This document shows, one piece after another, positions 3,254 to 26,600 of a stretch of 42,868 nt of DNA (position 1 is its first letter; the number at the start of each line of letters is the position of its first letter). The stretch is from Anaerolineae bacterium (GTDB taxonomy: Bacteria; Chloroflexota; Anaerolineae; Aggregatilineales; J027), in NCBI GenBank assembly GCA_019913005.1, contig JAIOHL010000341.1, forward strand, positions 1 through 42,868. Reading direction: 5' to 3'. A program made the position numbers and the translations under genes. A model generated the notes under the pieces. It had not been told where the DNA came from, did no database searches, and worked only from the letters and a program-made list of their open reading frames with translations.

Positions 3254-4135
3254 ATGATTAAGATTGAACACCTCACCAAAATCTATAAAGGTGATATCAC
3301 AGCGCTGAATGATATTTCGCTTGAAATCGGGACTGGGATGTTTGGATTGGTTGGGCCAAATGGTGCGGGCAAAACCAGTCTCATGAGAATTATCGCTGGA
3401 CTGCTGCATTGGACGGCTGGCCGGGTTGAAGTCAATGGGCAAGGTATGCACACCCTAAAAGGTAAACAAGCTGCCAAAGCTATATTAGGGTATCTTCCGC
3501 AAGAGCTTGGCCTCTATCCGCATTTGACGGGCGCCGAGTTTTTAGATTATGTCGCCATTCTGAAGGGCGTTACCAATCGGCAGCAGCGCAAGCAGCAGTT
3601 ACGGGAAGCCTTAGAAAAGGTACATTTGACCGAGGTAGCAGACCGCAGGCTAAAGACTTATTCTGGCGGCATGAAACGGCGTATCGGCATCGCGCAGGCC
3701 CTCATCGGCAATCCTCGGCTTATGATTGTGGATGAACCAACCGCAGGGCTTGACCCTGAAGAACGAGTACGGTTGCGAAACCTGTTTTCGGAACTGGCCG
3801 AAAATGCAACGGTGATTCTTTCGACCCATATCATTGAAGACATCAGCCAAAGTTGCCGTGATCTGGCTATTATGTATAACGGAACCGTGTTGTTTCGGGG
3901 TGCGCCGAATGAGTTAATTCAAAAAACACGCGGACAAGTCTGGAACATTGTGACGGATGGAGAACGCCCGAATCACGGTCTAAAAGTGGTTTCCACACTT
4001 CAATTGGCGCAAGGGATGCAGTATCGGGTGATCGGGGACGCAGGGGCTTTTCCGAACGCCATATCCACTGAGCCAAGTCTGGAAGATGGTTATATCCATC
4101 TAATGGGCCAAACTCGGAATAGGGAATTGGCTTAG
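3254..4135 (+). CDS. ABC transporter ATP-binding protein
   Basis: 293 residues. All nucleotide-binding motifs are intact: Walker A GPNGAGKT (about 34-41), Q-loop near LPQE (81-84), signature SGGMK (137-141), Walker B LMIVDEP (156-162) and the switch histidine at 192 (LSTHI). About 90 C-terminal residues follow the ATPase core, as in ATPases that serve ABC-2 exporters. AGGAG at 3242-3246 overlaps the previous stop codon and sits 7 nt before ATG 3254. Last gene of the ECF sigma/exporter operon. Confidence 0.93.
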   Translation: MIKIEHLTKIYKGDITALNDISLEIGTGMFGLVGPNGAGKTSLMRIIAGLLHWTAGRVEVNGQGMHTLKGKQAAKAILGYLPQELGLYPHLTGAEFLDYVAILKGVTNRQQRKQQLREALEKVHLTEVADRRLKTYSGGMKRRIGIAQALIGNPRLMIVDEPTAGLDPEERVRLRNLFSELAENATVILSTHIIEDISQSCRDLAIMYNGTVLFRGAPNELIQKTRGQVWNIVTDGERPNHGLKVVSTLQLAQGMQYRVIGDAGAFPNAISTEPSLEDGYIHLMGQTRNRELA

Positions 4136-4173
4136 TTTGGAGGGTAGATGGATCACTCAATGATTGGACAACG

Positions 4174-4211
4174 GGAGGGTATCCATGAGACCTGCTTGCT
4201 GGATGCCCTCC
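4174..4211. terminator. Hairpin between convergent genes
   Basis: GGAGGGTATCCA (4174-4185) and TGGATGCCCTCC (4200-4211) pair at 11 of 12 positions with a 14-nt loop. It lies between the convergent stops of the ABC ATPase (4135) and the propeller gene (4231). No long T run on either side, so it is a poor intrinsic terminator but well placed to end both transcripts. Confidence 0.4.
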
Positions 4212-4230
4212 ATTTCACGCAGATGGGAAC

Positions 4231-6390
4231 TCAACGCCATGTTGCAGCTTGAACACCAGTGTTCCCAAAGGGTGTGCCGACAGACTGGTTAAGAAAGACC
4301 CCTGAATTAAAGTCAAGATCGTTGCGATAGAACAACTCACCGTTTTGATAGAACAGGCCGAAGGAATCCACACCGCTGCCATCCCAATCGCCGATGACCA
4401 ATAGGCCTTCATCATTTGCGCTGGGTACACCTATATATTGGGCGAGATCATAGGCTGCTGGGCCAACCGAAGGGGCGATATTGCCAAACGCGATAAACGC
4501 ACCGCGTCGCACCGCGACTGAATCTACCCTATCGCCGTTGAAATCGCCTGCGCCGAATTGGAATGTACCTGTGAATCCCTGTGAATCAGGTAGCACAACA
4601 CTCAGCCACTGAAATGAAATCGGCGGCGTGGGGCTAGACCCAGACATATCACAGGTGTAATACAAGACAAAGGCCAAGCCATAGGGTGGGATATTGGCCG
4701 AATCCACTGCACCGATGCAGTCGTTAGGGAGGCTGCCATTAAACCGACCCGCGACTGATGGACCATTGATGCCCACCCAGAAACCGCCCCAATCTGATGC
4801 TTGGGCTTCCCCCATGACGTTGGTATAGTAAAACACCCCGCTGATATAGACTCCCGGTGTATCCAAGCCGTCGCCATTCCAATCACCCATTACCCATTGA
4901 CCGGGAGTTGTGGACGGTGCATAGTCCGAAAATAGGGCGTAATGGCTAGCGGTAGGGTTATCTGCGAGCGTGTCTATCAAGTTGACTTGGCGGTGGGCAG
5001 GGTTGAAGAGTACCAAAGTGTCCCCTATGGTAGGAGTGGTAGGGGCGACAAATACATCCCACATCCCATTGGTATCGCCATTGACCAAGTTGGTGGCGGC
5101 AGAGTGGAAGGCAATATAGCGACCATCACCAGAGATGACGGGGTTAACGGATTCCCCTCCAGTGCCTTGTGTCCCATCGGTTGCGACTGATGGACGGGTT
5201 GTGGTGTTCGTCTGGCGATCATGCACAAACGTATCATAGACCCCGTTGGTGTCGTTTGGCACAAGATTGGTGGCAACTGACCAAAACGCCACATAGCGTC
5301 CATCGTTGGAGATGACCGCATCATAGGAATCCCCACCTGTTGATTGAGTCCCACCTGTCGCCACCGAGACGCGCGTCGTCGTATTGGCCGTCCGGTCATG
5401 GACAAAAATATCAAGGCTGCTATTGGTATCGCCTGTCACCAAATTAGTCGCTGCCGATTCGAAAGCAACATACTGACCATTGCCAGAGATCATGCCACGA
5501 AACGACCCACTTGGTAGCGCTTGTACTCCCCCCGTTGCCACCGAGGCCCGGGTTGTTGTATTGGTTGTCCGGTCATACACAAAAATATCTGAGAGGTTAT
5601 TGGTGTCCCCCGCCACCAAATTATTGGATGTAGACTCAAACGCCACATAGCGCCCATCGGTGGACAAAGTTGGATAAAACGAATCGCCACCTATTGATTG
5701 TGTGCCCCCCGACCCTACCGAAACACGAGTGGTAGTTCCGGTTTGACGGTCATGTACAAACGCATCATATCTGCCATTGGTATCGCCTGTCACCAAATTG
5801 GTCGCACTTGATTGGAAGGCAATATAACGCCCATCGCCAGAAATCGCAGTCAGTTCGGACGCTGCGTTGGACTGTATGGCACCTGTCGCTACTGAGACAC
5901 GGGTCGTGGTACCAATCTGGCGGTCACGCAGAAAAACATCAGTTAAAGCATTGGTATCGCCTGCCACCAAATTGGTTGCATCAGACTGGAAGGCAATGTA
6001 ACGTCCATCATTGGAGATTTTGGGCACACCAGAAAACGCATTACCCTTGACCCCGGCACTGCTGACCGAAATCAATTGCAAACTACACGTGTGGCGGTCA
6101 TACGCATAGACATCGTTGAGGCCATCGCCGTCGCCCGGTAGCAGCGACTGAAAGGTACGGAACGCAACATACCGCGCATCACTCGATAGGCTTGGGTAGA
6201 GTGAACTCATGAGTGATTGTGTACCCAAACCCGTAAGCGACACCCGATGAATCGTGTTAACTGGCGCACAAATCAGAGAGTTACTGTTTCCAGCCTGCCC
6301 ACCGCCATTGGAGGCTAGGACAGGATAGGCAGCGAAAGCTAGGCAAAAAACCGCGATGATAAATGGTCGAAGCAGGTGATTAATCAACAT
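4231..6390 (-). CDS. Secreted seven-bladed PD40/TolB-like beta-propeller protein
   Basis: 719 residues from ATG 6390. The open frame reaches 6414, but AAGGAG lies 8 nt before ATG 6390, so the shorter start is chosen. A signal peptide (LLRPFIIAVFCLAFAAYPVLA) is followed by seven repeats of about 58 residues with the core DGRYVAFxSxATNLVxGDTN and a closing FVHDRQTxTTTR, typical of PD40 propeller blades. The last 230 residues hold a separate domain with GDWNGDG, AGDFNGD and GDWDGSG loops resembling the calcium-binding DxDxDG loops of FG-GAP/VCBS proteins. It is paralogous to the gene at 6820-9375 but lacks that protein's extra N-terminal domain. Probably an exported binding or surface protein; ligand unknown. 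Its nearest visible promoter is the SARP-type site at 6702-6745, beyond the remnant paralog. Confidence 0.88.
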   Translation of the reverse strand: MLINHLLRPFIIAVFCLAFAAYPVLASNGGGQAGNSNSLICAPVNTIHRVSLTGLGTQSLMSSLYPSLSSDARYVAFRTFQSLLPGDGDGLNDVYAYDRHTCSLQLISVSSAGVKGNAFSGVPKISNDGRYIAFQSDATNLVAGDTNALTDVFLRDRQIGTTTRVSVATGAIQSNAASELTAISGDGRYIAFQSSATNLVTGDTNGRYDAFVHDRQTGTTTRVSVGSGGTQSIGGDSFYPTLSTDGRYVAFESTSNNLVAGDTNNLSDIFVYDRTTNTTTRASVATGGVQALPSGSFRGMISGNGQYVAFESAATNLVTGDTNSSLDIFVHDRTANTTTRVSVATGGTQSTGGDSYDAVISNDGRYVAFWSVATNLVPNDTNGVYDTFVHDRQTNTTTRPSVATDGTQGTGGESVNPVISGDGRYIAFHSAATNLVNGDTNGMWDVFVAPTTPTIGDTLVLFNPAHRQVNLIDTLADNPTASHYALFSDYAPSTTPGQWVMGDWNGDGLDTPGVYISGVFYYTNVMGEAQASDWGGFWVGINGPSVAGRFNGSLPNDCIGAVDSANIPPYGLAFVLYYTCDMSGSSPTPPISFQWLSVVLPDSQGFTGTFQFGAGDFNGDRVDSVAVRRGAFIAFGNIAPSVGPAAYDLAQYIGVPSANDEGLLVIGDWDGSGVDSFGLFYQNGELFYRNDLDFNSGVFLNQSVGTPFGNTGVQAATWR
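5046..6246 (-). repeat. Seven tandem blade-coding repeats
   Basis: Seven in-frame units of about 170-180 bp inside the propeller gene each encode one blade, with recurring (+ strand) text for ACCAA(A/G)TTGGT and for the DGRY and DTN motifs. They are diverged, protein-level repeats, not identical DNA copies. Confidence 0.6.
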
Positions 6391-6404
6391 GAGTAGGGTC
6401 TCCT

Positions 6405-6600
6405 TTAGCGCCAAATTGCTACTTGGACGCCGATATTGCCGAAAGGTGTGCCAACTGATTGATTCAGGTGGATGCCCGAACTGAACTCAACATCGTTGCA
6501 ATAGAACCGCTTGCCATTGTGATAAAACAACCCAAATGAATCAGTCCCATTGGTGTCCGATCAAGGTGTCTGCATCGTTGATCGAGGGAATACCATAAGA
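6405..6600 (-). pseudogene. 3' remnant of a third propeller paralog
   Basis: Read on the minus strand, this stretch encodes the last 50 or so residues of the same C-terminal domain found at the ends of both flanking paralogs. It contains DSFGLFYHNG, a match to NQSVGTPFGN, and a terminal IWR before TAA at 6405-6407. Just upstream, YGIPSINDADTLIG is in another frame, so a small deletion near 6556-6562 has destroyed the reading frame, probably removing 8 nt of a GDWD-like motif. Nothing homologous is visible beyond about 6600. The stop codon overlaps the ribosome-binding site of the gene at 6390. It is an inactive leftover of a tandem duplicate. Confidence 0.8.
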
Positions 6601-6612
6601 AATCACAATCCC

Positions 6613-6670
6613 TAAAAAGGTATGTCTCAACCCCTACAAAAAGTGGGAGCGGATGAGAAGGGTTGAGACA
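6613..6670 (-). terminator. Perfect 11-bp inverted repeat in a leader, possible attenuator
   Basis: TGTCTCAACCC (6623-6633) and GGGTTGAGACA (6660-6670) are perfect complements around a 26-nt loop. On the minus strand the stem is followed within 4 nt by a run of five T (6613-6617). It lies between the promoter at 6702-6745 and the remnant/propeller gene, so it could stop or throttle that transcript. It could also be the scar of the deletion that shortened the third paralog. Confidence 0.45.
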
Positions 6671-6701
6671 ATACAAGTGCAAGGTGATCAAGACAGAGGT
6701 C

Positions 6702-6745
6702 AGTATAAAAAAACTGCGCGACAAAAACGTGACAACTGTATGACA
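6702..6745 (-). promoter_or_regulatory. SARP-type promoter P2: three 11-bp-spaced TGTCR units plus TATACT
   Basis: On the minus strand, TGTCA (6745-6741), TGTCA (6734-6730) and TGTCG (6723-6719) repeat on an exact 11-bp period. They end 11 nt before a -10 box TATACT (6707-6702). No -35 box is present, as expected when an activator replaces it. The site at 9574-9617 has the same spacing and shares GGTCAGTATA and CTGCGCGACA with it. It sits directly after the terminator of the upstream paralog and points toward the remnant and the gene at 4231-6390. Confidence 0.6.
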
Positions 6746-6752
6746 CCTAAAC

Positions 6753-6785
6753 AAAAAGGCCGGGCTTCATAACCCGACCTTTTTT
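6753..6785. terminator. Bidirectional rho-independent terminator
   Basis: AAAAAGGCCGGGC and the near-complement GTCGGGTT-side arm (CCCGACCTTTTT on the + strand) enclose a short loop, with A runs and T runs on both flanks. It lies 35 nt past the stop of the paralog at 6820-9375 and ends its minus-strand transcript. Confidence 0.8.
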
Positions 6786-6819
6786 GTGAGGGGAATCTAG
6801 GGGTATTACTTGGTATACC

Positions 6820-9375
6820 CTATCGCCATGCTGAAACCTGTGTCGCACCTGCCAGCGGCACACCAAGCGATTGATTGAAATACACCCCTGAATTGTAATC
6901 GAGGTCGTGGCGATAGTAGAACTCACCATCTTGATAATACAGCCCGAATGAGGCGATGGTGTCACCGTCCCAATCGCCCGCTACCAAAGTGCCTTCATCG
7001 CTGATACCGGGTGCGCCGATATATTGCCCAAACGGGAAGCCCCCAGCACCTGTTGTGGCTGCATCGTTAGTCCATGTGATCGAAGTTCCGCGCCGACACG
7101 CAATCGTTGCCACCCCATCACCATCAAAATCCCCTGCGGAAAATTGATGCGTGCCGGTAAAGCCTGCCGAGTCGGGCAACAGGACACTCAACCATTGAAA
7201 ACCGATAGCAGGGAGGAGATTGCCCGATAGGTCGCAGGTGTAGTAGAGGACAAAGGCCATACCATAAGGTGGAAAATCAGCCCCTTCGATGACTCCAATG
7301 CAGTCATTGGTCACGGCTGCATCGAGCCGCCCAGTGACCGGCGACCCGGTTACACCAATCCAGAGTAGTTCCCAATCCTCCGTCTCACCCGGTTCATTGG
7401 TGAAGAAGAACGCGCCATTACTATAGACCCCGGGGGTTTCTAGGCCATCACTGTCCCAGTCGCCCATGACCCATTGCCCCCCTGTGACAGGTGCATAGGC
7501 CGAATAGAACGTATAGTCGTCCGCCGCAGGTGGATCACCCAAGCCCTCTACAAGACCAACAATTTGGAAATTGGGACTAAACACGGCTAGATTATCGGCA
7601 GGTGTGGGGAAACGCGGCGCAACATAAATATCAGGATCATCGTTCGTATCCCCTGAAATCAGATTGGTTGCTTCCGATTCAAAGCTCACATAATTGCCAT
7701 TGCCCGAAATAGCTGGATAGCTGGTATTGTCATCCCCCAATGTTCCATCCCGCGCTATCGAAACTAAGGTGGTCGTATTGGCAACGCGGTCACGCACATA
7801 GATGTCTGTCCAACCATTGGTATCTTCGGTGGCTAAGGGAGAATCGGATTCAAAGACAATTTGGCGCCCGCCATTCGCAATGGCTGGGTTAGCTGATGGG
7901 AGTGCGCCTAGTACCCCGGCTGTCGAGACTGAAACCAGTGAGGTAGTGGGAGTGCCGCTGGTGGTACGCACAAACACATCCCGGAAATTATTGGTATCAC
8001 CAGCTACCATGTTGGTCGCATCGGATTCAAAGGCGATGACCGTTCCGTTGGATGAAATTGCCGGGTCCCATGAATTACCATTGGCTTGACCCCCACCCGA
8101 CGGTATGGAGACACGGATGGTCGTGCCCGCCGTCAGTGCCCGTGCAAAAATATCACGTTCACCGTTGTTATCATTCGCCACCAGATTGGTCGCCTCGGAC
8201 TCAAACGCGACATGATTTCCCGCTGAGGCAATATCCGGCATAAACGAACCACCCCCTGTCGCTTCATTGCCCGCATTGGTGAGCGAGACTCGGGTAGTTG
8301 TGCCTGCTGTGAGATCACGCAGGAAAATATCTGATTCGCCATTGGTGTCGCCTGTCACAAGATTGGTGGCGGTAGACTCGAATGCAATGCGTGTCCCGTC
8401 GCCAGAAATTGTCGGGTTATGTGAAGCTCCATTCGCCTGAGGAAATGCAATGTTAGCCCGCGAGATACGGGTGATCTCAAAAGTCTCTTGGTCATACATG
8501 TAGATGTCGCTGACACCATTGGAATCAGCGCTAACCAACTCGGCACTTGTCTCGAACACCACATAGCGCCCATCGGCTGAAATATCAGGGTTAACTGACG
8601 ACAGGGTTGCCTCCGTACCATCATTGGCAACAGACACCCGGCTAATTTGGCAGGTTTGGCGATCATACACAAAAATGTCAATGAGTCCGTTGGTATCGCC
8701 TGCTACCAATTCCGACGAGGCAGATTCGAACGCGACAAAACGTCCATCTTCCGATAGGGCTGAGTCACTGTTGGTAAATGCACCAGACACTTGCTCATTG
8801 TGATAGTCGAGACTGACGCGATGAATGGCATTCACCGGGGTGCAGGTGCTGGCAAATATCCCACCTTCCTCGTCGCCACTGATGGTTGTATCGGTGGCTT
8901 GTTCAGTAGAGATGACAAAAGCATCTACCGCCACAATACCGCCCTCTTGGGCATAGACCCTAAGTAGATGTGACTCATTGCTCAGATAGTTGATGACTGC
9001 GCTTTGCCCATAGACGGTTTGGTCGGCCCTCGTGATGACTGTCCGCAGCACCGTACCATCCACCTCAAGGGCCAGTGTGCCTAAAGCTGGTCCCTCAATG
9101 TAGACAACTTCCAGTGTGGTGCCGACAAACTCCAATTCCAGCACATCCCCCTCGGCTCCGCTCGAATAGAGATAGGCCCCATCGCTGGCGGCGGGGGCTG
9201 TCTGGGATGACCAATTGCCTTCACGACTGACCAACGCATTGTCCGACTCAATCCGTTGACTTGACTGCTCCTGCGAATGGGCCGGCCAACCAATCAGAAA
9301 AAACAAGATGGCGACTACTGCCAGTAAAATGACAGATGTCCGCACTACACGAGACTCGTTTGTTGCTATTCGCAT
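6820..9375 (-). CDS. Secreted PD40 beta-propeller protein with extra N-terminal binding-like domain
   Basis: 851 residues from ATG 9375, chosen because GGGAG lies 7-8 nt upstream; the frame is open to 9423 but without a ribosome-binding site. A signal peptide (SVILLAVVAILFFLIGWPAHS) is followed by about 120 residues of a beta-rich module (GNWSSQTAPAASDGAYLYSS ... ALEVDG ... IVAVDAF) that looks like a carbohydrate-binding or adhesion domain. Seven PD40 blades (core DGRFVAFES ... VAGDTNG ... DIFVYDRQT) come next. The C-terminal domain carries GDWDSDG, AGDFDGDG and GDWDGD loops, closely matching the paralog at 4231-6390. A SARP-type promoter lies about 190 nt upstream, and the gene is divergent from the SARP regulator. 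Exported, probably surface-associated; ligand unknown. Confidence 0.88.
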   Translation of the reverse strand: MRIATNESRVVRTSVILLAVVAILFFLIGWPAHSQEQSSQRIESDNALVSREGNWSSQTAPAASDGAYLYSSGAEGDVLELEFVGTTLEVVYIEGPALGTLALEVDGTVLRTVITRADQTVYGQSAVINYLSNESHLLRVYAQEGGIVAVDAFVISTEQATDTTISGDEEGGIFASTCTPVNAIHRVSLDYHNEQVSGAFTNSDSALSEDGRFVAFESASSELVAGDTNGLIDIFVYDRQTCQISRVSVANDGTEATLSSVNPDISADGRYVVFETSAELVSADSNGVSDIYMYDQETFEITRISRANIAFPQANGASHNPTISGDGTRIAFESTATNLVTGDTNGESDIFLRDLTAGTTTRVSLTNAGNEATGGGSFMPDIASAGNHVAFESEATNLVANDNNGERDIFARALTAGTTIRVSIPSGGGQANGNSWDPAISSNGTVIAFESDATNMVAGDTNNFRDVFVRTTSGTPTTSLVSVSTAGVLGALPSANPAIANGGRQIVFESDSPLATEDTNGWTDIYVRDRVANTTTLVSIARDGTLGDDNTSYPAISGNGNYVSFESEATNLISGDTNDDPDIYVAPRFPTPADNLAVFSPNFQIVGLVEGLGDPPAADDYTFYSAYAPVTGGQWVMGDWDSDGLETPGVYSNGAFFFTNEPGETEDWELLWIGVTGSPVTGRLDAAVTNDCIGVIEGADFPPYGMAFVLYYTCDLSGNLLPAIGFQWLSVLLPDSAGFTGTHQFSAGDFDGDGVATIACRRGTSITWTNDAATTGAGGFPFGQYIGAPGISDEGTLVAGDWDGDTIASFGLYYQDGEFYYRHDLDYNSGVYFNQSLGVPLAGATQVSAWR
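7619..8820 (-). repeat. Seven tandem blade-coding repeats
   Basis: Seven in-frame blade units of about 170-180 bp inside the larger propeller gene, parallel to those in the paralog at 4231-6390 but more diverged from one another. Confidence 0.6.
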
Positions 9376-9573
9376 GATATTCTCCCAACCCTTTGATCCA
9401 ACGAAGTGTGGCGGTGTCAGCAATGGAGCCTATCCAGTACGGCTGTCCCACGATTACATGCTCATTGCCATGTGCAATCTCATTGCATGGAAACGTCGCA
9501 CTGCAAATTCCACTACAATGGGTGGAAACATTGCTGACTGGCACACACCCCAAGCATTGCTTGATTGACGGTC

Positions 9574-9617
9574 AGTATAGGGAAGCTGCGCGACAGCTTG
9601 GTGACAGAATCGTGACA
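9574..9617 (-). promoter_or_regulatory. SARP-type promoter P1: three 11-bp-spaced TGTCR units plus TATACT
   Basis: On the minus strand, TGTCA (9617-9613), TGTCA (9606-9602) and TGTCG (9595-9591) are spaced exactly 11 bp, followed after 11 nt by TATACT (9579-9574). SARP regulators are known to bind direct repeats of this period next to the -10 box. It would drive the propeller gene at 6820-9375 with a leader of about 190 nt. The repeats also reach to within 14 nt of the SARP start codon at 9631, so the same binding could repress or tune the regulator itself. Confidence 0.65.
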
Positions 9618-9630
9618 GGGGGACAAACCA

Positions 9631-11454
9631 ATGAGTGACTTGCGGGTGTATTTGTTAGGAACCCCACGCATCGAATTTCAAGGCATAGCCGTCAAGATTG
9701 AACGCCGCAAGGCTTTGGCCCTTATCGCCTATCTCGCGTTATCCGAACAAATGCAGAGCCGCGAGGTTATCGCCAGTTTATTGTGGCCCGATCAAGACGA
9801 GGATCATGCGCGGTCAGCTTTGCGAAGTGCCCTACGGGCGCTAACCAAGGCGGTGGAGATAGAATGGATTCAAGCAGATCGTATGACTATCGGCCTCAAA
9901 AGAGAAGTGGTATGGGTTGATGTGATCGCTTTCCAAACACTACTCGCGGCGAACAGCGGCCATCCGCACGGTTCGGATAGCATTTGTAAAGATTGTGTAG
10001 ATTTTTATCAACAAGCTGCAACACTCTATAGCGATGATTTTTTGATTGGGTTCAACCTGCCGGATGATTTGGAATTTGAGAACTGGCAGTTAGCCCAACG
10101 TGAATGGCTGCGTCGTGAATATGCGGATGTCCAACGCCGCATGGCCCACTATTATGCTGACTTGGATCAGTATGAACAAGCGATTCGTCATGCGATTCAG
10201 TGGTTGGCAATTGATACCCTACATGAGCCTGCCCATCGCCACTTGATGCGTTTATATGCTGCGAATGGTCAGCGATCAGAAGCGTTACGCCAATATCGCC
10301 AGTGTGTAGAAATTTTGGATAGTGAACTTGCTACCCCTCCCGAAAGCGAGACCACCCGACTTTTTGAGGCCATTCAACAGGGTAATCCCACGCTGGTGTC
10401 GTCCACCGACTCGATTAGTACGCCGATTTCGGGGGTGATGCCGCCCCTGCCATCGCTTGTGGTGGGACGTGATGCTGCGCTCCATGCGATTAAGCAGCGA
10501 CTTGGCGTGGGCAGTCCGGAAGCACGACCAATCACCGTTATTCAAGGCTGGCCGGGTGTCGGCAAAAGCACCCTTGTGGCAACACTGGCTCACGATTTGG
10601 AACTCAGCCAGCATTATCCTGATGGTGTCTTATGGGCCTCACTGGGTGAAAACCCCAGTATCGCCAGTGAGATTGGAGCTTGGGCAGAAGCATTACGGTT
10701 GAATGAACCCGGCCAAGCCCGTACTGTCGAGGAAATTAGTGCCCAATTGACGGCGCTGCTGCGTGACAAACGAATGCTGCTGATTGTGGATGATGTGTGG
10801 CAGGCGGATCATGCCCAACCTTTTCGGGTTGGGGGGAAAAACTGTACTTTGGTGATGACGAGTCGTTTAAATGACGTGGCGACTGCTCTTGCCCCGACGG
10901 CTACCGATATTTATCGCCTACCCGTCTTAACCGAACATGCCGCACTGGAACTATTGGCAAAGTTCACTCCTGAAACTGTTGCAAATCAACTTGATGAAGC
11001 CACGCAATTGGTGCGTGACCTCGAAGGTCTGCCGTTGGCGATTCATGTGGCAGGCCGTCTGCTACAAAGCGAGGCTCGATTGGGCTGGGGGGTGACTGAA
11101 TTATTGGCTGATTTGCGAGAGGGTGCCAGCTTGCTGACCGCCCAAGCACCCAGTGATATGTTGGGCGTCAAGTCCGATACCTCGCTGACAATTACCGCAC
11201 TTCTCAAACGCAGTACGGATTCGCTCGATGCCTTAGCCCGGCAGTATTTCGCTTATTTGGGATTATTTGTTGCCAAACCTGCCACATTTGATCTGCCCGC
11301 GATGGCCGTCGTATGGGAGGTAGACGACCCGAAACCGGTTGCAAGATTACTGGTCAATCGTGGTCTCTTAGAACCCGTTGGTGGGGGACGTTTCCAAATG
11401 CACGCTCTCTTGGTTTTACATGCCCGCTCACTTTTGGATGAGGTGATGAACTAA
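9631..11454 (+). CDS. SARP/AfsR-like transcriptional regulator: wHTH, BTAD and NB-ARC domains
   Basis: 607 residues. A winged-helix DNA-binding domain of OmpR type (about 1-95, with RRKALALIAYLAL and a LLWPD.DEDHARSALR segment) is followed by a bacterial transcriptional activator domain (about 97-245, with HEPAHRHLMRLYAANGQRSEALRQY). An NB-ARC-type ATPase switch follows from about 275, with P-loop GWPGVGKST (306-314), Walker B LLIVDDVW (383-390) and a sensor-like VMTSR. It ends after a short winged-helix-like segment. The TPR part expected in AfsR-type proteins is in the next gene. GGGGG at 9618-9622 gives 8 nt spacing to ATG 9631. It probably regulates the divergent propeller gene and perhaps itself. 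Confidence 0.9.
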   Translation: MSDLRVYLLGTPRIEFQGIAVKIERRKALALIAYLALSEQMQSREVIASLLWPDQDEDHARSALRSALRALTKAVEIEWIQADRMTIGLKREVVWVDVIAFQTLLAANSGHPHGSDSICKDCVDFYQQAATLYSDDFLIGFNLPDDLEFENWQLAQREWLRREYADVQRRMAHYYADLDQYEQAIRHAIQWLAIDTLHEPAHRHLMRLYAANGQRSEALRQYRQCVEILDSELATPPESETTRLFEAIQQGNPTLVSSTDSISTPISGVMPPLPSLVVGRDAALHAIKQRLGVGSPEARPITVIQGWPGVGKSTLVATLAHDLELSQHYPDGVLWASLGENPSIASEIGAWAEALRLNEPGQARTVEEISAQLTALLRDKRMLLIVDDVWQADHAQPFRVGGKNCTLVMTSRLNDVATALAPTATDIYRLPVLTEHAALELLAKFTPETVANQLDEATQLVRDLEGLPLAIHVAGRLLQSEARLGWGVTELLADLREGASLLTAQAPSDMLGVKSDTSLTITALLKRSTDSLDALARQYFAYLGLFVAKPATFDLPAMAVVWEVDDPKPVARLLVNRGLLEPVGGGRFQMHALLVLHARSLLDEVMN

Positions 11455-12848
11455 TGGCATCTTCTGGTGGCACCGTTCAATATCGGTTGGCTCAACATTA
11501 TGTTACTCGTCTGCAACAGGCAAATACGGCCTTTCGGCGCGGGCATGGCAACCGCACCTATTGGTATAACCAGATTGAACAGGACTGGAGTCAAATCCGC
11601 CAATGGCAGGCATGGTCGGCTAGTGCGGCAGATGAGCTAGACAAAGCCCAATTATGTGTAGAATTTTCCATTGCGGGAATTGATATTTTGCGGGTCCGCC
11701 AAACGCCGTCCGAGCGGGTAACTTGGCTGCAACAGGCGCTTGATGCGGCGATTTTGGTCGGCAATGCCGAAGCGCAGCGCACCATTCTGCACCACCTTGC
11801 GCAAGCCCATTTTTATTCAGCCCGATCTGAACAAGCCACGCAACTTGCCAACCAGTTATTGATTTTAAGCCAACAAGCCAAAGATACATTGAACATTGGG
11901 CGAGCTTACTACACATTGGCGTCGGTTGCCCAACAGCTAGGCAAGTTCGATGAGTCCGAGAAATTGCTAAATAGGGCGCTCGTTTTATTTGAAAAATGCC
12001 AAGGAACCGCCGAAATTGGTCGTGTTTATCAGGGGATTGGCCGAGTGGCCCATTTTCGCGGCGACTATCAGTTGGCATATGATTATTTTGCCAAATATTT
12101 GGCAATCGTTGAGGGAACAGGCCGCGAAGGAGAGTTGAGTGTCGCTCTGCTGACCCTTAGCAACAGCCTTGTCTCCCTAGGAGATTTTATCACTGCCGAA
12201 CAATACGCCGAACGATCCGTACAAATATGCCGTAATGTTGGCTTTATGCGAATGCTGCCCGCTGCCTTGCTCAGTTTGGCGATGTGTGAAGTCGAAGTGG
12301 ATAAGCTGGATTCTGCCATTAGCCATTATCAAGAGGGTATCCAAGTTGCCGACTCGATCAATATGAAAAACTTGGTGGTGAGTGGGATGATTGATCTGGG
12401 TAATATTTATACACACCTCGGTAACTTTGAGGCAGCGACCAAGTTTTATGGAGAAGCCCTTGAATTGGCCCACCAAAGAAAGACCCCTTACTATGTCTGC
12501 CTCGCGCGAGGGTATATGGCCTACTTAGACCTTCTGCAAAATCGGTATGAACCAGCCCGCCAAGCCATACTGGAGGCTATTGAACTTGCTCTTCAGCTTG
12601 GGATCGAACCCTATGTGGCAAAAACGCTACTTATCGTGGTTTATTTTTTCTGGCACGGTCAAGAATATGAACAAGCGGCACGATGGACGGGCGTTCTGCA
12701 TCGGTATGCCATCCATCTCAATCGTCGCTTATTTGAGTCCATTTGCCGAGAATTAGAAACCGACGAGTACATGCAAATCATCCAGCAAGGCCAAAATCTT
12801 GATTTAGTCGAGGTGATAAAAGAGGCAAAAACAATATTAAGCCAATAA
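11454..12848 (+). CDS. TPR-repeat protein, detached C-terminal half of an AfsR-like regulator
   Basis: 464 residues of helical repeats. TPR units are visible through most of the length, for example NIGRAYYTLASVAQQLGKFD, GRVYQGIGRVAHFRGDYQLA and VSGMIDLGNIYTHLGNFEAA. The N-terminal 60 residues (RLAQHYVTRLQQANTAFRRG...) read like the linker that follows the NB-ARC domain in single-chain relatives. The start ATG overlaps the previous stop as TAATG (11452-11456), so translation is probably coupled by re-initiation. It has no DNA-binding domain of its own and most likely binds the SARP/NB-ARC protein to sense a signal or keep it inactive. Confidence 0.85.
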   Translation: MASSGGTVQYRLAQHYVTRLQQANTAFRRGHGNRTYWYNQIEQDWSQIRQWQAWSASAADELDKAQLCVEFSIAGIDILRVRQTPSERVTWLQQALDAAILVGNAEAQRTILHHLAQAHFYSARSEQATQLANQLLILSQQAKDTLNIGRAYYTLASVAQQLGKFDESEKLLNRALVLFEKCQGTAEIGRVYQGIGRVAHFRGDYQLAYDYFAKYLAIVEGTGREGELSVALLTLSNSLVSLGDFITAEQYAERSVQICRNVGFMRMLPAALLSLAMCEVEVDKLDSAISHYQEGIQVADSINMKNLVVSGMIDLGNIYTHLGNFEAATKFYGEALELAHQRKTPYYVCLARGYMAYLDLLQNRYEPARQAILEAIELALQLGIEPYVAKTLLIVVYFFWHGQEYEQAARWTGVLHRYAIHLNRRLFESICRELETDEYMQIIQQGQNLDLVEVIKEAKTILSQ

Positions 12849-12889
12849 GATCGGCAGAAAAGAACCGTCTTCAATTTGTGAACGGCAAA

Positions 12890-13954
12890 TTACCGACTAG
12901 AGCCAGTTGGTCGATTGTTATCAAATTCAGGCGAACCCTCAACTGGAGCGACCCATGTCTCGCCTGCAATATACGCATCGAGATTTTCGCGTGTCACAAC
13001 GGTTGAGGGCGTCAACAAAATATAGGGCAGTTTTTCGCCATTAAACAATTTATTGATTTGTTCAATGATCACCTGTCCCATGCGATTTGGATATACGCCC
13101 AGTGTAGCGGTGAGCGTGCCCTCCCGAATGAGATTTAAGGTAACATCGTTGCCATCTATCCCCACCGAAAAAATGTCTTCGTTGATGACTAGCCCGTTTT
13201 GCTGGGCTGCTAGGGCCGCTCCAATCGCCATTTCATCGCTGTTGCCAAAAAACACATCAATATCAGGGTGTTGTTGTAGCGCCGCCATTGCTACCTGTAG
13301 CGCTTTCTCTCGCTCCCATTCAGCGGTTTGTTCCCCAACCACCTCGACCAGCGGGCAATGCTGCGCCAAGCCATATTTAAACCCCCCCGTTCGCCGATTA
13401 GTGTGAAAACCCGGAATGCCTGTCAGAATAAACACCTTGCCTTTGGCGGCAGAGATCTCCACACTTTGTTGGTCTGCCAATCTCTGACAGACATAGGCCG
13501 CCAGATTCGCTGCGCCGCTCCATTGGTCGTAGCCGATATATTCCACCACTTGGCCCTCGGCAATCGGGGTAATCAGATTGTGCATAAATACGGGGACACC
13601 CATCTGATTGGCGGTGGTAACTCCTGCGATCATCGCATTGGCGTTAATCGGATTGATCGAAATCGCGTCCACACCCTGCTGCACGAGTTGTTCTACGATA
13701 GCCACTTGCCCTTCAATATCGGTTTCGCGCTCCGGAGATTGGGTAATTACATTCCAATGATATTCATCGGCGCGTGTATGTACCCCTTCCAGCAACGTGA
13801 CATGGAAAGGGCTTACCAATGCAGGAGGGATAACCGCGACGGTATGCTCGACCCGTTGGGCACGTATTACCCGTATGGCGACCAGCGTGATAACAGTAAT
13901 CGAGAGAATGATCAAGGTAAAATTGCGACGGATAACAAGTGATTTGAGGAACAT
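12890..13954 (-). CDS. Sugar-type ABC transporter substrate-binding protein (RbsB family)
   Basis: 354 residues from ATG 13954, preferred because GAGGG lies about 5 nt upstream. A GTG at 13972 that overlaps the preceding stop would add six residues. The N-terminus holds a hydrophobic export segment (FTLIILSITVITLVAIRVIRA) without a lipobox cysteine. The mature part shows the periplasmic-binding fold of ribose/galactose binders: FHVTLLEGVHTRADEYHW near the start, VEQLVQQGVDAISINPINA, PVFMHNLITP, and DIDVFFGNSDEMAIGAALAA near the hinge. Third and last gene of the minus-strand CUT2 operon. Exact sugar unknown. Confidence 0.88.
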   Translation of the reverse strand: MFLKSLVIRRNFTLIILSITVITLVAIRVIRAQRVEHTVAVIPPALVSPFHVTLLEGVHTRADEYHWNVITQSPERETDIEGQVAIVEQLVQQGVDAISINPINANAMIAGVTTANQMGVPVFMHNLITPIAEGQVVEYIGYDQWSGAANLAAYVCQRLADQQSVEISAAKGKVFILTGIPGFHTNRRTGGFKYGLAQHCPLVEVVGEQTAEWEREKALQVAMAALQQHPDIDVFFGNSDEMAIGAALAAQQNGLVINEDIFSVGIDGNDVTLNLIREGTLTATLGVYPNRMGQVIIEQINKLFNGEKLPYILLTPSTVVTRENLDAYIAGETWVAPVEGSPEFDNNRPTGSSR

Positions 13955-20653: not shown

Positions 20654-23600
20654 ATGTTCAAGCGCAAGCGTGTTTTGGTATCGCTACCATTGGCGCTGAT
20701 AATCTGTACGGTTATTTTTGCCCTCATAAGACCGAATTCTCCACAGGCCTCTCCACCCAATCAAGCTGGAAACATTGCACCAAAGATTATTGAAACATCA
20801 CCGGAAAATGGCGAAGAACTAGGTCTCCAACGTTCAGTCGAGTTTACCTTTGACCGTCCTATGAATATGGAAAGTGGCGGTATCTTTAGTGTTGACCCCG
20901 CTATAGAAGGCGGCGTATGGGAATGGGTAGATGGGGGACGTATTCTCAGGTTTTCCCCTCCACTCGAAGGGTATCCAACCGACAGTGACCTTATCTTCAG
21001 CGTATTTGCTGAGGATACGCAACATGTCGCAATGGAGTCTGCTTATCGGCTTCATGTATTTACCACGAATTCCCTGCAAGTATCGGAAGTGCTACCGGGA
21101 AACGGGGCTGCAAATGTCTCCACCGATACCGTCGTCACGGTTATTTTCAACCGCCCGGTTGTGCCTCTGACCAGCATTGGCTATCAGGCCGATCTGGTTA
21201 ACCCGGTACACATCGAACCAGAAACGACTGGGACGGGCGAGTGGCTCAATACTTCTATCTATACGTTCAAGCCCGAACAGGGATTTATTGGCGGAACGAC
21301 CTATACCGTTACGATTGATGCCGGACTCAAAACCCCGACCGATGCCGTTTTAGAAGAGGATTATCAGTTTAGTTTTTCCACCGTCAAGCCCACGTTTGCC
21401 AATGCACGTGTATTGAACGCGCCGCGTGTGCGCCATACTGAAGAACAAGATGAGGCAGTTGACCGACTGATAGCCGAGCGAGAACTTTTTGCCCCATTTG
21501 ATGTACCCCTAAAACCCATTCTCGAATTGAGTTTTACCCAGCCCATGAATCCTGTTACACAAAACGGCCTGTATATTGAATCGTGGGATGGGGACAGGGT
21601 GCGCATGGGTTATTCATGGTCAATAGATCGTCGGACGGTTCGACTGCGCACACTTGACCCGCTCGCACTCGACTCGATTTTTGTACTGGTTGGGGATGAC
21701 GCCATTCTGCGATCTATGACGGGTGCGGAATTGAATAATGACTATTTGCGACCCTTACGCACCGTACCCTATCCTGATTACTATCGAACGTATCCCGCCG
21801 ATGGCGAACGGAATGTTGACCCCGGCGGCAGTTTCAGTATCTTCTTTAATGCCCCGATGGACGCCGACAGTATCGCCGATAAAATTAAGATAGACCCTGC
21901 GCCGGAAGGTGAAATCGGTGGGTATTATGAAGAATGGCGTAATGCCTATTTTGTGATTTTCCGAAGCCTGCCCAATGTCAATTACGCCATTACCCTAGAA
22001 CCGGGGATGCGGGATATTTATGGCAATGAAATTACCACGCCCACCGAAATCAATTTTGCGACACGGGCCTATGAGCCGTCGCTTAGGCTGAATGTCCCCG
22101 GTATGATGGCGGTCTACAATGCGTATGACCCCACGACACGCTTGTTTGTCTCCCATCGTAACATTGATACGATTGAATTGCAGCTTTATCGGCTGGATTT
22201 GCCCTCATTGGCAGGGGTAGCCCGCAGCAACAGCCAACCTCACCGGGATAACCGTGCCGACCAACGGCTGCGTTCATGGCAAGTTCCGGTGGCCTCCCCA
22301 TTGAATGTATCACGTGACCGGATGGTGTTGATTTCACCAGAAGAAGTAGATCGCGGTCTGGAAGATTTCGCCTGTCAAGGAGTGGCGGCCCGGCGCTTGA
22401 GTGTAGATATTGAAGCGCGTGTGACCAACGATGACCCCCGCCCGTTGCCTGTTCAGGCCGAAGCTAGTTTTTCAAGCGATACCGTGACCCAATACCCGGC
22501 GGGTACAACCTTTTGGGTGCAAGATGGCCCGCTATGCGCCGAGGGCTATTTGTGGTGGAAGGTCAAGAATTTTGAGGACGAGACGGAAGGGTGGATTCCA
22601 GAGGGCAGCCTCTCCACCTATTTCGTTGAGCCGCTTTCCGATGTGCCCCTGATTGAAAACGGCGAATACAAAGCGCTTGAACCGGGAGCCTATCTACTGT
22701 ATGTCAACTCACCCCAATCCAACAAACGCGGTTATCCCGCCAATACCCATGTGATGATTGTGGCGACGGTCAATATCACGTTTAAGTACAGCCAACATGA
22801 AGCCCTTGCATGGGTTACGAACATGCAAACAGGGAATCCCGAACCCAATTTGTTGGTGAAATTTTACGACAACAAATTCAGCGTGGCCGCTTTTGGGCGC
22901 ACCGATGAAAACGGCCTTGTGCTCGTTGACCTACCCAAACTGGATACCTATGGCACACTCTACGCAGTGGTACAGACACCTGAACATTTCGGCTTCGTCT
23001 CAAACCGTCTCATCTACGGCATCCAACCCGGCGATTTTAATGTCGAGATGGATTACCAACAGAGTAATCAACGTCTGTATCTCTACAGTGATCGCCCGGT
23101 TTATCGCCCCGGTCAGACCGTGTATTTTCGCGGTATCCTGCGTAAACAAGACGATGTGTTGTACACACTCATGCCGGGACACCGAACTGTGCCTATCGAA
23201 ATCTATGATGCGTCGAATCAGAAAATCTACGAGGAGCGCATTGAGGTTAATCCGCAGGGCACATTTTCTGGTGAATTCACATTGGATGAAGAGGCCAGCC
23301 TTGGCAATTATCGTATTGCGGTTGCGTTGCCAAGCTATCAGGAATATTACAATCGCTACACGGGGTACTATTGGAATCTGCCGGGTTTAACCTTTAATGT
23401 GGCCGAGTACCATGCGCCAGAATATGAAGTCCGGGCAGTGCCAGCCGCCGATGAAGTATTGATGGGCGAGATGGTGGATGTGACTATTGATGCTCGATAC
23501 TTTTTTGGGGGCGCAGTCAGCAATGCCCAAATTAAGTGGGTAGCACTGGGTCAAGACTATTACTTTAACTATCAAGGGCGTGGACGCTGGACATTCCAAG

Positions 23601-26600
23601 ATTTTGATTATGACCGCCTCGATACCGAGAACTACATCGAGACGACCTCTGGGGTTTGGGCCGAAAAAGTATCGGAGGGCGAAGGTGTGACCGACGCAGA
23701 AGGCCGTTTTATCGTCCGTCTGCCTGCCGGAGCCGCCAATCACCCCGGTAGCCAAGTCTATACCATTGAAGCCACCGTCACCGATGAAAGCAATCAGCCC
23801 GTCGCAGGGCGTGTGCGGGTGGTGGTGCATCAAGGCAAGGTCTATGTAGGCGTTGCGCCGGACAGCTATTTGAGTCAGGCTGGCAAAACCTCGCGCTTTA
23901 ATTTAATCACGGTGGATTGGGACAGCCAAGCCGTAGCTGATCAGATGGTAGATTACCGCATTGTCGAGCGTCGCTGGACAAGTGTTTTGGAAAAAGACAC
24001 CGACGGACGCATGGCATGGACATGGGATTTGGAAGAAATTGAGGTGGCAAGTGGCTCGGTAACATTGGACGCCGATGGCAAGGGTCAAGTGGAGTATGTG
24101 CCGCCGCGTGGGGGAACCTATAAGCTGTATGCCACCACCCGCGATGATGTGGGCCATGAAATCTTGAGCAGTGGCTTTATGTGGGTGTCCAGTCCTGAAT
24201 ATGTTTCATGGCGACAGCGTAATGATAATCGTGTCACCCTGATTGCGGATGCGGATACCTATCACCCCGGCGATACCGCCCAAATTTTGATACCCAGCCC
24301 ATTTCAAGGGGAAACACTAGCGTTGGTCACGGTGGAGCGCGACAGCTTTTTGCACACCGAAATTATCCATATGGCAACCAATTCGTATGTGTATCAACTG
24401 CCGATTGAAGACCTCTATGCCCCGAATATCTATGTCTCGGTCATGCTGATTAAAGGCATTGACGAACATACGACTTACGCACAGTTTCGATTCGGCATGA
24501 TTCCATTGACGATTGATACCGAGCGATTGGTGATGGATGTCGAAGTCACACCCGTTATGCCAGAGGGTATTGAAACAGTTGGGCCGGGAGATACCGTCAC
24601 CCTTGATGTAAAAACCCGCGATTGGGCAGGTAATCCGGTGAGCGCCGAAGTGGGGATTGGCGTCACGGACTTGTCGGTTCTAGGGCTTATGTCCCCCAAT
24701 AGCCCACCCCTCTTGGAATACTTTTATAGTCGGCGCGGTTTGGGGATTATGACGGCCTCTACCTTAACGATCTCCGCCGATGATTACGTTCAATATGTCA
24801 CCAATGGGCGCAAAGGCGGCGGTGGCGGTGGCGGCGGGTATCCGGGGGTCATCGAAATCCGCCAAGATTTTGTAGATACCCCCCTCTGGGAACCTAGTGT
24901 AGTTACTGATGAAAATGGGGAAGCCCAAGTGAGCATTACCCTGCCCGATAATTTGACCACATGGTATATTGATGCCCGTGCTATTACAACTGACACCGAT
25001 GGACCAATGTTGGTTGGGCAGTCGACAGCGGATTTTATCAGCACCAAACCGCTGCTCATTCGGCCTGTTACCCCACGCTTTTTTGTCGTTGGCGATGAAC
25101 TCAGCATCGGCGCAATTGTCAACAACAACACCCCACGCGAGCAAACCGTACAGGTGGAATTGATTGGCACAGGGTTTGATGTGCTCAATGACGCTGCCCT
25201 CGTCCAAACTGTCACCATTCCGGCACAAGGACGCCAACGGGTGGATTGGCCCATTGTCGTCCTAGATGTTTCGGATATTGATGCGACCTTCACGGTGCGG
25301 AATGAAGATAGTTCCTATACCGATGGCAGTAAGCCGCTGCTTGGTCAAGGCGATGAACGTCTATTGCCTGTCTACCGTTATGTGGCTCATGAGACAGTGG
25401 GTACAGCCGGGGTCTTGGATGGGCCAGAGGCGCGGCGTGTTACTGAAACGATTGAACTGCCTGAACAAGCTGACACCGAACGGGGTAGTCTGCGCATCCG
25501 GCTTGACCACACATTAGCTGGGCCGATGTTGGATGGCCTGAACTATTTGCAGAACTATCCGCACCAATGTATTGAGCAGACGGTCAGTCGTTTTTTGCCG
25601 AATATCATGACTATGCGGGCACTGGCGGAACTCAATCAATCGAACCCGGAACTAAAGCAAAATCTGAATCAGCAAGTGATTTTTGGATTGCAGCGACTTT
25701 ATGCGCTTCAGCATTCCGATGGCGGTTGGGGCTGGTTCCCCGGCGATGCGTCTAATCCCTTAACAACCGCCTATGCTCTGATTGGTTTGAGTGAGGCGCG
25801 TAACAGTGGTTTTGCTGCTGTTGATACCAGTGTCATTGAACGAGCGGGTGACTTTCTCTATGGGTATATTGCCCAACAGGAGGGGAGTGGCGGACTCGAT
25901 AACTTACAGGATTGGCAACTCAATCAACGGACTTTTATCCTCTATGCCCTGAATCGCAGCGCTTACGCCAGTGGCCTAGATTCGGTGACCTACGCGGCCC
26001 GCTTGACATTGATATACGAGCAGCGTCACCGCCTAAATCTGGATGCACAGGCGTTTCTAATGATGAGCATGATGGCGAATGACCCGAATGACCCTCGCCT
26101 TGAAACATTGAAGAGTGATTTCATGAGTGCCGCCACGTTTGCGGGAAGTGCCAGCGCAACTGGGATTCATTGGGAAGATCGGCCTGATTATTACAATTGG
26201 ACAACCGACACCCGCACGACGGCTTTAGTCTTGATGGCACTGGCGCATTATGATGTTACGAATGACCTACTGCCGGGGGCGGTGCGTTGGTTGATGACGG
26301 CACGCCAAGCCGACGCATGGGAGACGACTCAAGAAACCGCATGGTCGGTGATGTCACTCACCGATTGGATGCTGCTGACCCGCGAACTTGAGGCCGACTA
26401 TGCTTTTGGTGTTGATCTTAATGGCGAGGCACTGCTGCCAGAAGATACACGAGTAACACCCGATACGGTGCGTGAATCGCAGCGTCTGCGAGTTGAGATC
26501 GAAGAATTATTGTGGGATGAGGCCAATCAAGTGGTCATCACGCATGGCGATGGGCCGGGAAATCTGTATTACACCCTCCATTTGACGACATTTTTGGATG

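Follow-up and report, generated by a model that had tools for sequence, protein, structure and literature searches.

The window analysed here is the whole of a 42,868-nt stretch from an Anaerolineae bacterium of the Chloroflexota (contig JAIOHL010000341.1, forward strand), whose genome (G000) comprises 7.6 Mb in 365 contigs. It harbors a gene for a regulator of the SARP (Streptomyces antibiotic regulatory protein)/AfsR type, a gene for a TPR protein directly after it, and two arrays of short direct repeats, termed sites 1 and 2, each located upstream of an open reading frame (ORF) encoding a propeller with PD40 repeats (Table 1). The probable start codons of the two propeller ORFs are ATG 9375 (site 1) and ATG 6390 (site 2). 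An earlier note on this DNA had described both arrays as TGTCA-N6-TGTCA-N6-TGTCG-N11-TATACT on the minus strand, and this pattern was found letter for letter at 9617-9574 and at 6745-6702. Equally borne out were a SARP-type gene beside the first array, namely a BTAD gene whose start codon lies 14 bp past the distal repeat of site 1, and a propeller-family gene downstream of each array. On the minus strand, site 1 reads TGTCACGATTC TGTCACCAAGC TGTCGCGCAGC TTCCC TATACT and site 2 reads TGTCATACAGT TGTCACGTTTT TGTCGCGCAGT TTTTT TATACT. Additionally, the two sites have TGTCGCGCAG and TATACTGACC in common.

Table 1. Features around the two arrays, in positions of the window.
Feature	Position	Strand	Remarks
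Site 1	9574..9617	-	Heptamers 9617-9611, 9606-9600, 9595-9589 (11-bp period); -10 box TATACT 9579-9574
Site 2	6702..6745	-	Heptamer-like repeats from 6745, 6734, 6723; -10 box TATACT 6707-6702
SARP/AfsR-type regulator, 607 aa	9631..11454	+	N-terminal part aligns to AfsR DNA-binding domain; BTAD; NB-ARC
TPR protein, 464 aa	11454..12848	+	1-nt overlap with regulator gene; matches C-terminal TPR part of AfsR model
Propeller 1, 851 aa	6820..9375	-	PD40 repeats; signal-peptide-like N-terminal stretch by eye; likely target of site 1
Propeller 2	4231..6390	-	PD40 repeats; ATG start by eye; control by site 2 doubtful
Conserved hairpin then T-run, long loop, terminator-like	6614..6674	-	27 nt past -10 box of site 2
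Propeller remnant (C-terminal part), located between site 2 and propeller 2	6408..6557	-	tblastn 40% identity over 50 columns, E-value = 7e-12

The repeat unit is better read as two or three heptamers of the TGTCRCG type with 4-bp spacers, followed by 9 bp and then the -10 box. Allowing up to three mismatches, the triple-plus-box pattern matched the window at sites 1 and 2 only and gave no match in 100 dinucleotide shuffles. We also applied a rule that is blind to the letters, demanding three heptamers at an 11-bp lag, then 9 bp, then TANNNT, with a score out of 21. At a score of at least 14, sites 1 and 2 stood alone in the window, and 20 shuffles of the window gave a mean of 0.15 matches at a score of at least 15. 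A simple promoter/terminator scan reported neither site, as is expected because both lack a -35 element.

Concerning the regulator, a BTAD domain (PF03704, E-value = 4e-20) and an NB-ARC domain (E-value = 3e-24) are found in the same protein, with TPR encoded by the next gene. In alignments to the AfsR model NF053617 (986 positions), the regulator covers positions 29-610 with its residues 4-601 and the TPR protein covers positions 718-956 with its residues 91-249, both falling far below the cut-off of the model for AfsR proper. By these alignments the two proteins look like AfsR split over two genes. For comparison we used the 22 best-scoring SARP genes among the matches listed for 154 genomes of the order, with frames of 604-688 and at least 47% identity over the first 263 residues. 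A BTAD match is present in all 22 homologues, and the TPR gene stands next to the regulator gene in 18 of the 22 loci, two of the others being too short to tell and two being without it. A profile of the 22 homologues aligns to residues 49-284 of the AfsR chain (E-value = 1e-4) and to residues 13-82 of EmbR (E-value = 0.008), the majority of its 36 matches being TPR proteins reached through the BTAD part.

Both sites of the window are kept in three sister species (G001, G003, and G004). Site 1 shows no difference over its 44 bp among the four species and is part of a run of invariant columns extending about 20 bp past the box, an identity which alone proves little because the whole region is 96% identical; being near-identical to the window, these three genomes are omitted from the non-redundant counts given below. 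The earlier note had suggested looking for the repeats upstream of orthologous propeller genes, and at propeller 1 they are kept in all three species. Over 10 genomes of the family, the site pattern was matched 11 times, always exactly, in 5 genomes, versus 3 control matches at up to one mismatch. In another genus (G008) the array adjoins a 60% identical SARP gene, and the neighbour is not a propeller gene but one for a Big_9/cadherin-domain protein. In another family an array stands beside the SARP gene in both G041 and G064.

Across the sample of 22, an array pointing away from the regulator was located at 20 loci, at 17 as the top candidate of the letter-blind scan and at three by hand (G046, G140a, and G064b). 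In 18 of these 20 arrays the distance from the start codon to the beginning of the box is 45-53 nt, and the others are those of G141a (74 nt) and G140a (135 nt). Self-identity at lag 11 in the 19 non-redundant loci was 0.353 against 0.258 (standard deviation 0.012), and none of 500 shuffles reached 0.353 at any lag from 3 to 30, over a stretch (nt 6-75) that was picked after the sites had been seen. The best three-heptamer score within 250 nt was at least 13 in 17 of the 19 loci at lag 11, compared with 2-7 at lags 8-10 and 12-15. On a score that also required TA at the 9-bp gap, 14 of the 19 loci reached 13, versus 0-1 at lags 9, 10, 12, and 13. With the register set by the heptamer consensus, blind to the box, TANNNT stood at gap 9 in 14 of the 19 loci and in 0-5 at each of the remaining gaps between 0 and 25. 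Among regions upstream of other genes, a score of 13 was reached in 2 of 129 cases when reversed and in 7 of 129 in the forward direction, five of these seven looking like true targets (three of them in L068, L073, and L082). The difference between 14 of 19 SARP loci and 2 of 129 reversed control regions is significant (Fisher, 9e-14).

The strict gap to the box would also suit promoters of a dedicated alternative sigma factor, for which the repeats would form an unusual -35 region. Two to three repeats at an 11-bp period are nevertheless unlike a single -35 hexamer, and the boxes TATACT, TATAGT, and TATGAT resemble those of sigma-70; we regard such a factor as highly improbable. A SARP as the reader of the arrays is also indicated by their distribution among genomes. 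Exact site matches occur in 5 of the 154 genomes, all of which have a close SARP homologue, and one-mismatch matches in four more, three of them with one. One of the 22 SARP genes is present in 8 of the 9 genomes with a site-like match, versus 11 of the 145 without (Fisher, 1e-7; the genomes are related). Letter searches at up to three mismatches were too noisy in most genomes for defining regulons, and the pattern matches pursued were those with 0-2 mismatches, plus some with three that kept the third repeat or were apparently conserved. A match in G085, close to a contig end and with one divergent repeat, was dropped as chance.

Altogether at least 51 SARP matches were available, of which 47 were studied (G039, G054:C307, G015, and G058 were left out). 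The 25 genes beyond the sample of 22 mostly have frames of 850-1154 and include G018 (596), G139:C766 (592), and G014 (460); one, in G151, is without upstream DNA, leaving 24. When 300 bp next to each gene were scanned for two or more NGNNAC[GA] heptamers with an 11-bp period, 13 of these 24 genes had them on the strand directed away from the gene and none had them on the opposite strand. The letters of these arrays differ again (TGAGACG, TGGGACG, TGTAACG) and no fixed box was found in them. Specifically, G018 has 11-bp repeats with no box at the right gap, and the genes of G139:C766 and G014 showed no 11-bp repeats by the same heptamer pattern.

The letters of the arrays drift with the regulator. 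In 51 heptamers from 17 non-redundant arrays, G occupies position 2 in 42, T position 3 in 44, C position 6 in 42, and G position 7 in 46, while position 4 takes any base and position 5 is A in 31 and G in 18. TGTCACG predominates in the window group, G041, G064a, G066, G068, G069, and G008, TGTGACG in two G002 genes and G141a, TGCTGCG in G042a and G044, and TGTAGCG in G046 and G140a; the arrays of G040, G000b, and G064b have mixed or weak letters. The distance between sites correlates with the distance between the DNA-binding parts of their regulators (Mantel r = 0.516, reached in 0 of 5000 permutations). In the aligned recognition helix, residue 69 is proline in G042a, G044, G046, and G140a, whose arrays are mainly of the -GCG type, and in no other homologue. 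As a specificity determinant this residue is a weak lead, because the four possibly form a single clade and because isolated -GCG repeats also stand beside non-proline homologues, as in sites 1 and 2, each with a third repeat of the -GCG type.

Elsewhere in the source genome, exact TGTCR triples are absent, sites 1 and 2 being the only ones. The two-repeat-plus-box pattern has five matches, versus one for the reversed-pattern control: sites 1 and 2, a pair on contig C208, and one at C71:84818. Four of the five precede propellers, and the match at C71:84818 was taken as chance. One-mismatch matches to the triple alone (L003-L010) were likewise dropped as chance, by eye having no box at the right gap. 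Both sites on C208 precede propellers of the window's family. Four propeller genes stand there in a row, two of them only 68 bp apart, and therefore one site may serve two genes; the propeller match at C208:8640 runs into the contig end. The leaders of the C208 propellers (L012 and L013) contain, by eye, an inverted repeat, GTGCCTCGGC with GCYGRGGCAC, in which the differences between copies preserve pairing.

Propeller 1 matches 74 stretches of its own genome, and 7 of the 11 best matches (at least 630 bits) have arrays, two in the window, two on C208, one on C136, and two on C221. The arrays on C136 and C221 use another heptamer, GGTGAYG, with period (11 bp), gap (9 bp), and box (TATACT) unchanged. 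A GGTGACG-type site also precedes a gene on C338, and since this gene is a relative (57%) of the neighbour of a SARP paralogue on C335, the GGTGAYG code is probably read by the C335 paralogue. The GGTGAYG set of this genome was observed on C136 (L133), C221 (L135 and L136), C338 (L183), C253 (L181), and C181 (L180), all with the same geometry. These arrays precede three propellers and, on C338 and C253, proteins with an LQR-IGNQ-like motif, which we take to resemble DUF4157 proteins; the C338 protein had no Pfam match. Behind the sites on C50 and C190 there is no ORF of 120 aa within the stretch examined. Finally, an array of the TGTGACG/CGTAACG type with a TATATT box is conserved at G000:C288:31380 (L165), G001:C8:81342 (L168), G003:C7:4092, and G004:C11:2366. 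The L165 and L168 arrays precede a 186-aa ORF, ankyrin-like by eye, and the G000 copy shares its contig with a long-form SARP gene.

The genes beside SARP arrays vary across loci and comprise propellers, other secreted proteins, and an aminotransferase. In G041, an unlinked array on C3 precedes an aminotransferase class V gene with 76% identity to the SARP neighbour in G040 (which has the Pfam match), and another on C7 precedes a 363-residue gene with 73% identity to the SARP neighbour in G066. The likely targets, as judged from such neighbours, extend beyond propellers to other secreted proteins and an aminotransferase. Contig C18 of G002 carries five TGTGACG-type arrays in a 16-kb stretch, one of them a perfect triple and two located before propellers, the first of which is about 51% identical to the window's. 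Three successive genes there each have their own array, and one array before a propeller has a gap of 10 instead of 9. Operators of the propeller family are of the TGTCACG code in the window, TGTGACG in G002, and GGTGAYG on C136 and C221. That the operators of one and the same target family alter their letters as the regulator does is the strongest argument we have for a SARP as the reader. We tentatively propose, at somewhat less than even confidence, a natural code series, in which SARP paralogues of this Chloroflexota order would have changed the bases they read, with period, gap, and box fixed, and the propeller family would have passed between paralogues through few operator-base changes.

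The main and serious rival is a PhoB/PhoP-type (or other OmpR-type) regulator, to which the repeats would be Pho-box-like sites, the SARP gene being a neighbour or a target. In excerpts of the published accounts, the PhoB half-site is TGTCA(T/C) (PMC3264566) and a PhoB site consists of two 11-bp direct repeats (PMC3978041), the same letters and the same period as here, and SARP DNA-binding domains are themselves of the OmpR type (PMC10936776). Such a regulator fits less well than a SARP. The array tracks the SARP gene at 20 of 22 loci while the neighbours change, its letters change with the SARP paralogue, and the exact matches are confined to the five genomes mentioned above, all with a close SARP homologue. 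Moreover, the pstS-like gene at C163:3584 (L060) has no array with a box upstream, only one degenerate, boxless two-heptamer match (two mismatches) about 300 bp upstream. The other PF12849 loci scanned gave one more degenerate boxless match and no array, the ORF scanned in L062 being possibly not pstS-like. We consider a PhoB-type reader of the arrays improbable.

A SARP-type regulator acting on 11-bp repeats beside a -10 box, as the earlier note had put forward, is supported by arrays that track the regulator across genera and families despite differing neighbours. We therefore think it very likely that the window encodes a large-SARP (AfsR-type) regulator with a split architecture which acts on heptamer arrays. 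What was computed directly is that arrays exist, are conserved, and go with the regulator gene, that their letters drift, and that unlinked relatives of neighbour genes have arrays too; from these findings we infer binding, activation, feedback, and control through NB-ARC/TPR. The regulator would bind two or three heptamers 11 bp apart as side-by-side monomers, and would bring RNA polymerase to the TATACT lying 9 bp further on, so doing the work of a -35 element; activation from the box is to be expected by analogy to AfsR and PimR. Binding at site 1 would switch on the divergent gene for the secreted propeller 1; since no more than 14 bp separate the array from the start codon of the regulator, it should also exert feedback on the regulator gene. 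The same regulator would control the C208 propellers, and its activity would presumably be governed through NB-ARC and TPR. From paralogue to paralogue, the recognised heptamer would have changed together with the operators of the target genes.

Several observations weigh against this interpretation, the first of them at site 2. In G001, G003, and G004 this site is kept (two proximal repeats and the box) with no propeller downstream, the counterpart of window 4131-6613, propeller 2 included, being missing, and a terminator-like hairpin follows the site. This hairpin is present in the four species, with fold energies of -21.4 to -25.5 kcal/mol and z of -2.7 to -4.3, better than shuffles; the simple terminator scan, whose pattern takes loops of up to 8, missed it. 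That site 2 governs propeller 2 is doubtful, since site 2 lacks this gene in three sister species and since the conserved hairpin and its T-run stand between the two. In layout, site 2 looks like a promoter that leads into a terminator, and it may give rise to a short RNA or be an orphan. Specifically, the promoter-hairpin unit (window 6614-6707, minus strand) may yield a SARP-controlled RNA of about 80 nt. A search of window 4000-13000 against Rfam gave nothing at the gathering threshold. The promoter-plus-hairpin unit was observed likewise after site 2 in L035, L036, and L037, the three species without a propeller behind. Of the proposal that propellers are the targets of the SARP, the part concerning propeller 1 held, the repeats being kept at its orthologues; likely targets are not propellers alone, and propeller 2 is doubtful. 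In another part of the window, positions 20654-27076 form one ORF of 2140 aa.

Further points of the same kind concern the arrays and the regulator. No array was found at the SARP gene of G062, and in G010 one stands only before the upstream gene of a same-strand row leading to the SARP gene. The automatic score is not reached at G141a, G042a, and G044, no more than two heptamers are clear in G041 and G141a, the array of G000b is weak, and G046 and G064b are without TANNNT at the right distance. The TA-requiring score at lag 11 gives 7-14 of the 19 loci for gaps of 5-13 and is specific for the lag, not for the gap. With up to three mismatches allowed, matches to the site pattern do not clearly exceed those of the control in most of the 17 genomes searched. 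Near full-length propellers on C53, C45, and at C208:3060 are without an array, the last one lying 68 bp after another propeller gene, and no BTAD gene was found in the stretches examined of C136 and C221, so that the reader of GGTGAYG is deduced from the C338 gene. Pfam detected no winged-helix family in the N-terminal domain of the regulator at an E-value of 0.01. Structure predictions for this N-terminal part (predicted local distance difference test, pLDDT, 36) and for propeller 1 (pLDDT 39) were unusable, the input in each case being four near-identical sequences. Site distance correlates with BTAD distance as well (Mantel r = 0.358, 2 of 5000 permutations), less than with the DNA-binding part; because the BTAD part correlates too, the correlation between sites and regulators is owed partly to shared ancestry.

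For an array on C17 of G041 no gene is evident downstream on the opposite strand, and this, like site 2 standing without its gene in three species and the 14 bp between the window array and the SARP start codon, would agree with an array that is only the autoregulatory operator of the SARP gene, its copies before other genes being inert leftovers of duplication. Yet unlinked genes of different families have an array and a box at the same gap (G041:C3, G041:C7, G068:C33, C208, C136, and C221), and the three successive genes on C18 of G002 each have an array of their own, one at a 10-bp gap. Autoregulation alone is, in our opinion, quite improbable, and a SARP that also acts on genes other than its own remains the interpretation we prefer.

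SARPs have been studied mainly in actinomycetes and in antibiotic clusters. Among the papers listed in searches of an open-access library, none dealt with SARP operators in Chloroflexota, most subscription journals lying outside the search. On sequence grounds, the present data speak for an AfsR-type regulator that is split in two and lies outside the actinobacteria, for secreted proteins as its likely targets, and for operator codes that make up a natural series. The locus shows a regulator side by side with its operator and probable targets in a mostly uncultured group, and about twenty regulator-operator pairs with differing letters and a fixed geometry make the DNA-recognition code of the family testable. 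Additionally, these loci suggest that AfsR-type STAND regulators may control secreted proteins.

By analogy, the layout of the arrays equals that of the AfsR and PimR operators as described in excerpts of the published work (PMC10936776, PMC5930380), from which the following comparisons are drawn. With the Pho box of PhoB the arrays share the TGTCA half-sites and the two 11-bp repeats (PMC3264566, PMC3978041); they differ from it in that the examined pstS-like gene has no array, the letters vary with the SARP, and there are up to three repeats. The main operator of PimR of Streptomyces natalensis consists, like site 1, of three heptameric direct repeats with 4-bp spacers (PMC5930380). PimR differs in its consensus CGGCAAG, in an operator described there as having no -35 box overlap, in being a SARP-LAL regulator, and in having a unique target gene, pimM (PMC5930380). 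The closest likeness is to AfsR of Streptomyces coelicolor and its afs box, where a protein with winged helix, BTA, NOD/NB-ARC, and TPR parts acts on 11-bp direct repeats just upstream of the -10 element, the SARP domains sitting side by side on two repeats and engaging sigma region 4 and RNA polymerase (PMC10936776). The gap to the box is also alike, the 3' repeat of the afs box lying 8 bp from the -10 element, compared with 9 bp here for a 7-bp unit or 8 bp for an 8-bp unit (PMC10936776). Unlike AfsR, the regulator of the window is split over two genes and belongs to a different phylum, and its arrays have a strong TATACT, different letters, and as many as three repeats where the afs box has two; its likely targets are secreted proteins, whereas that of AfsR is afsS (PMC10936776).

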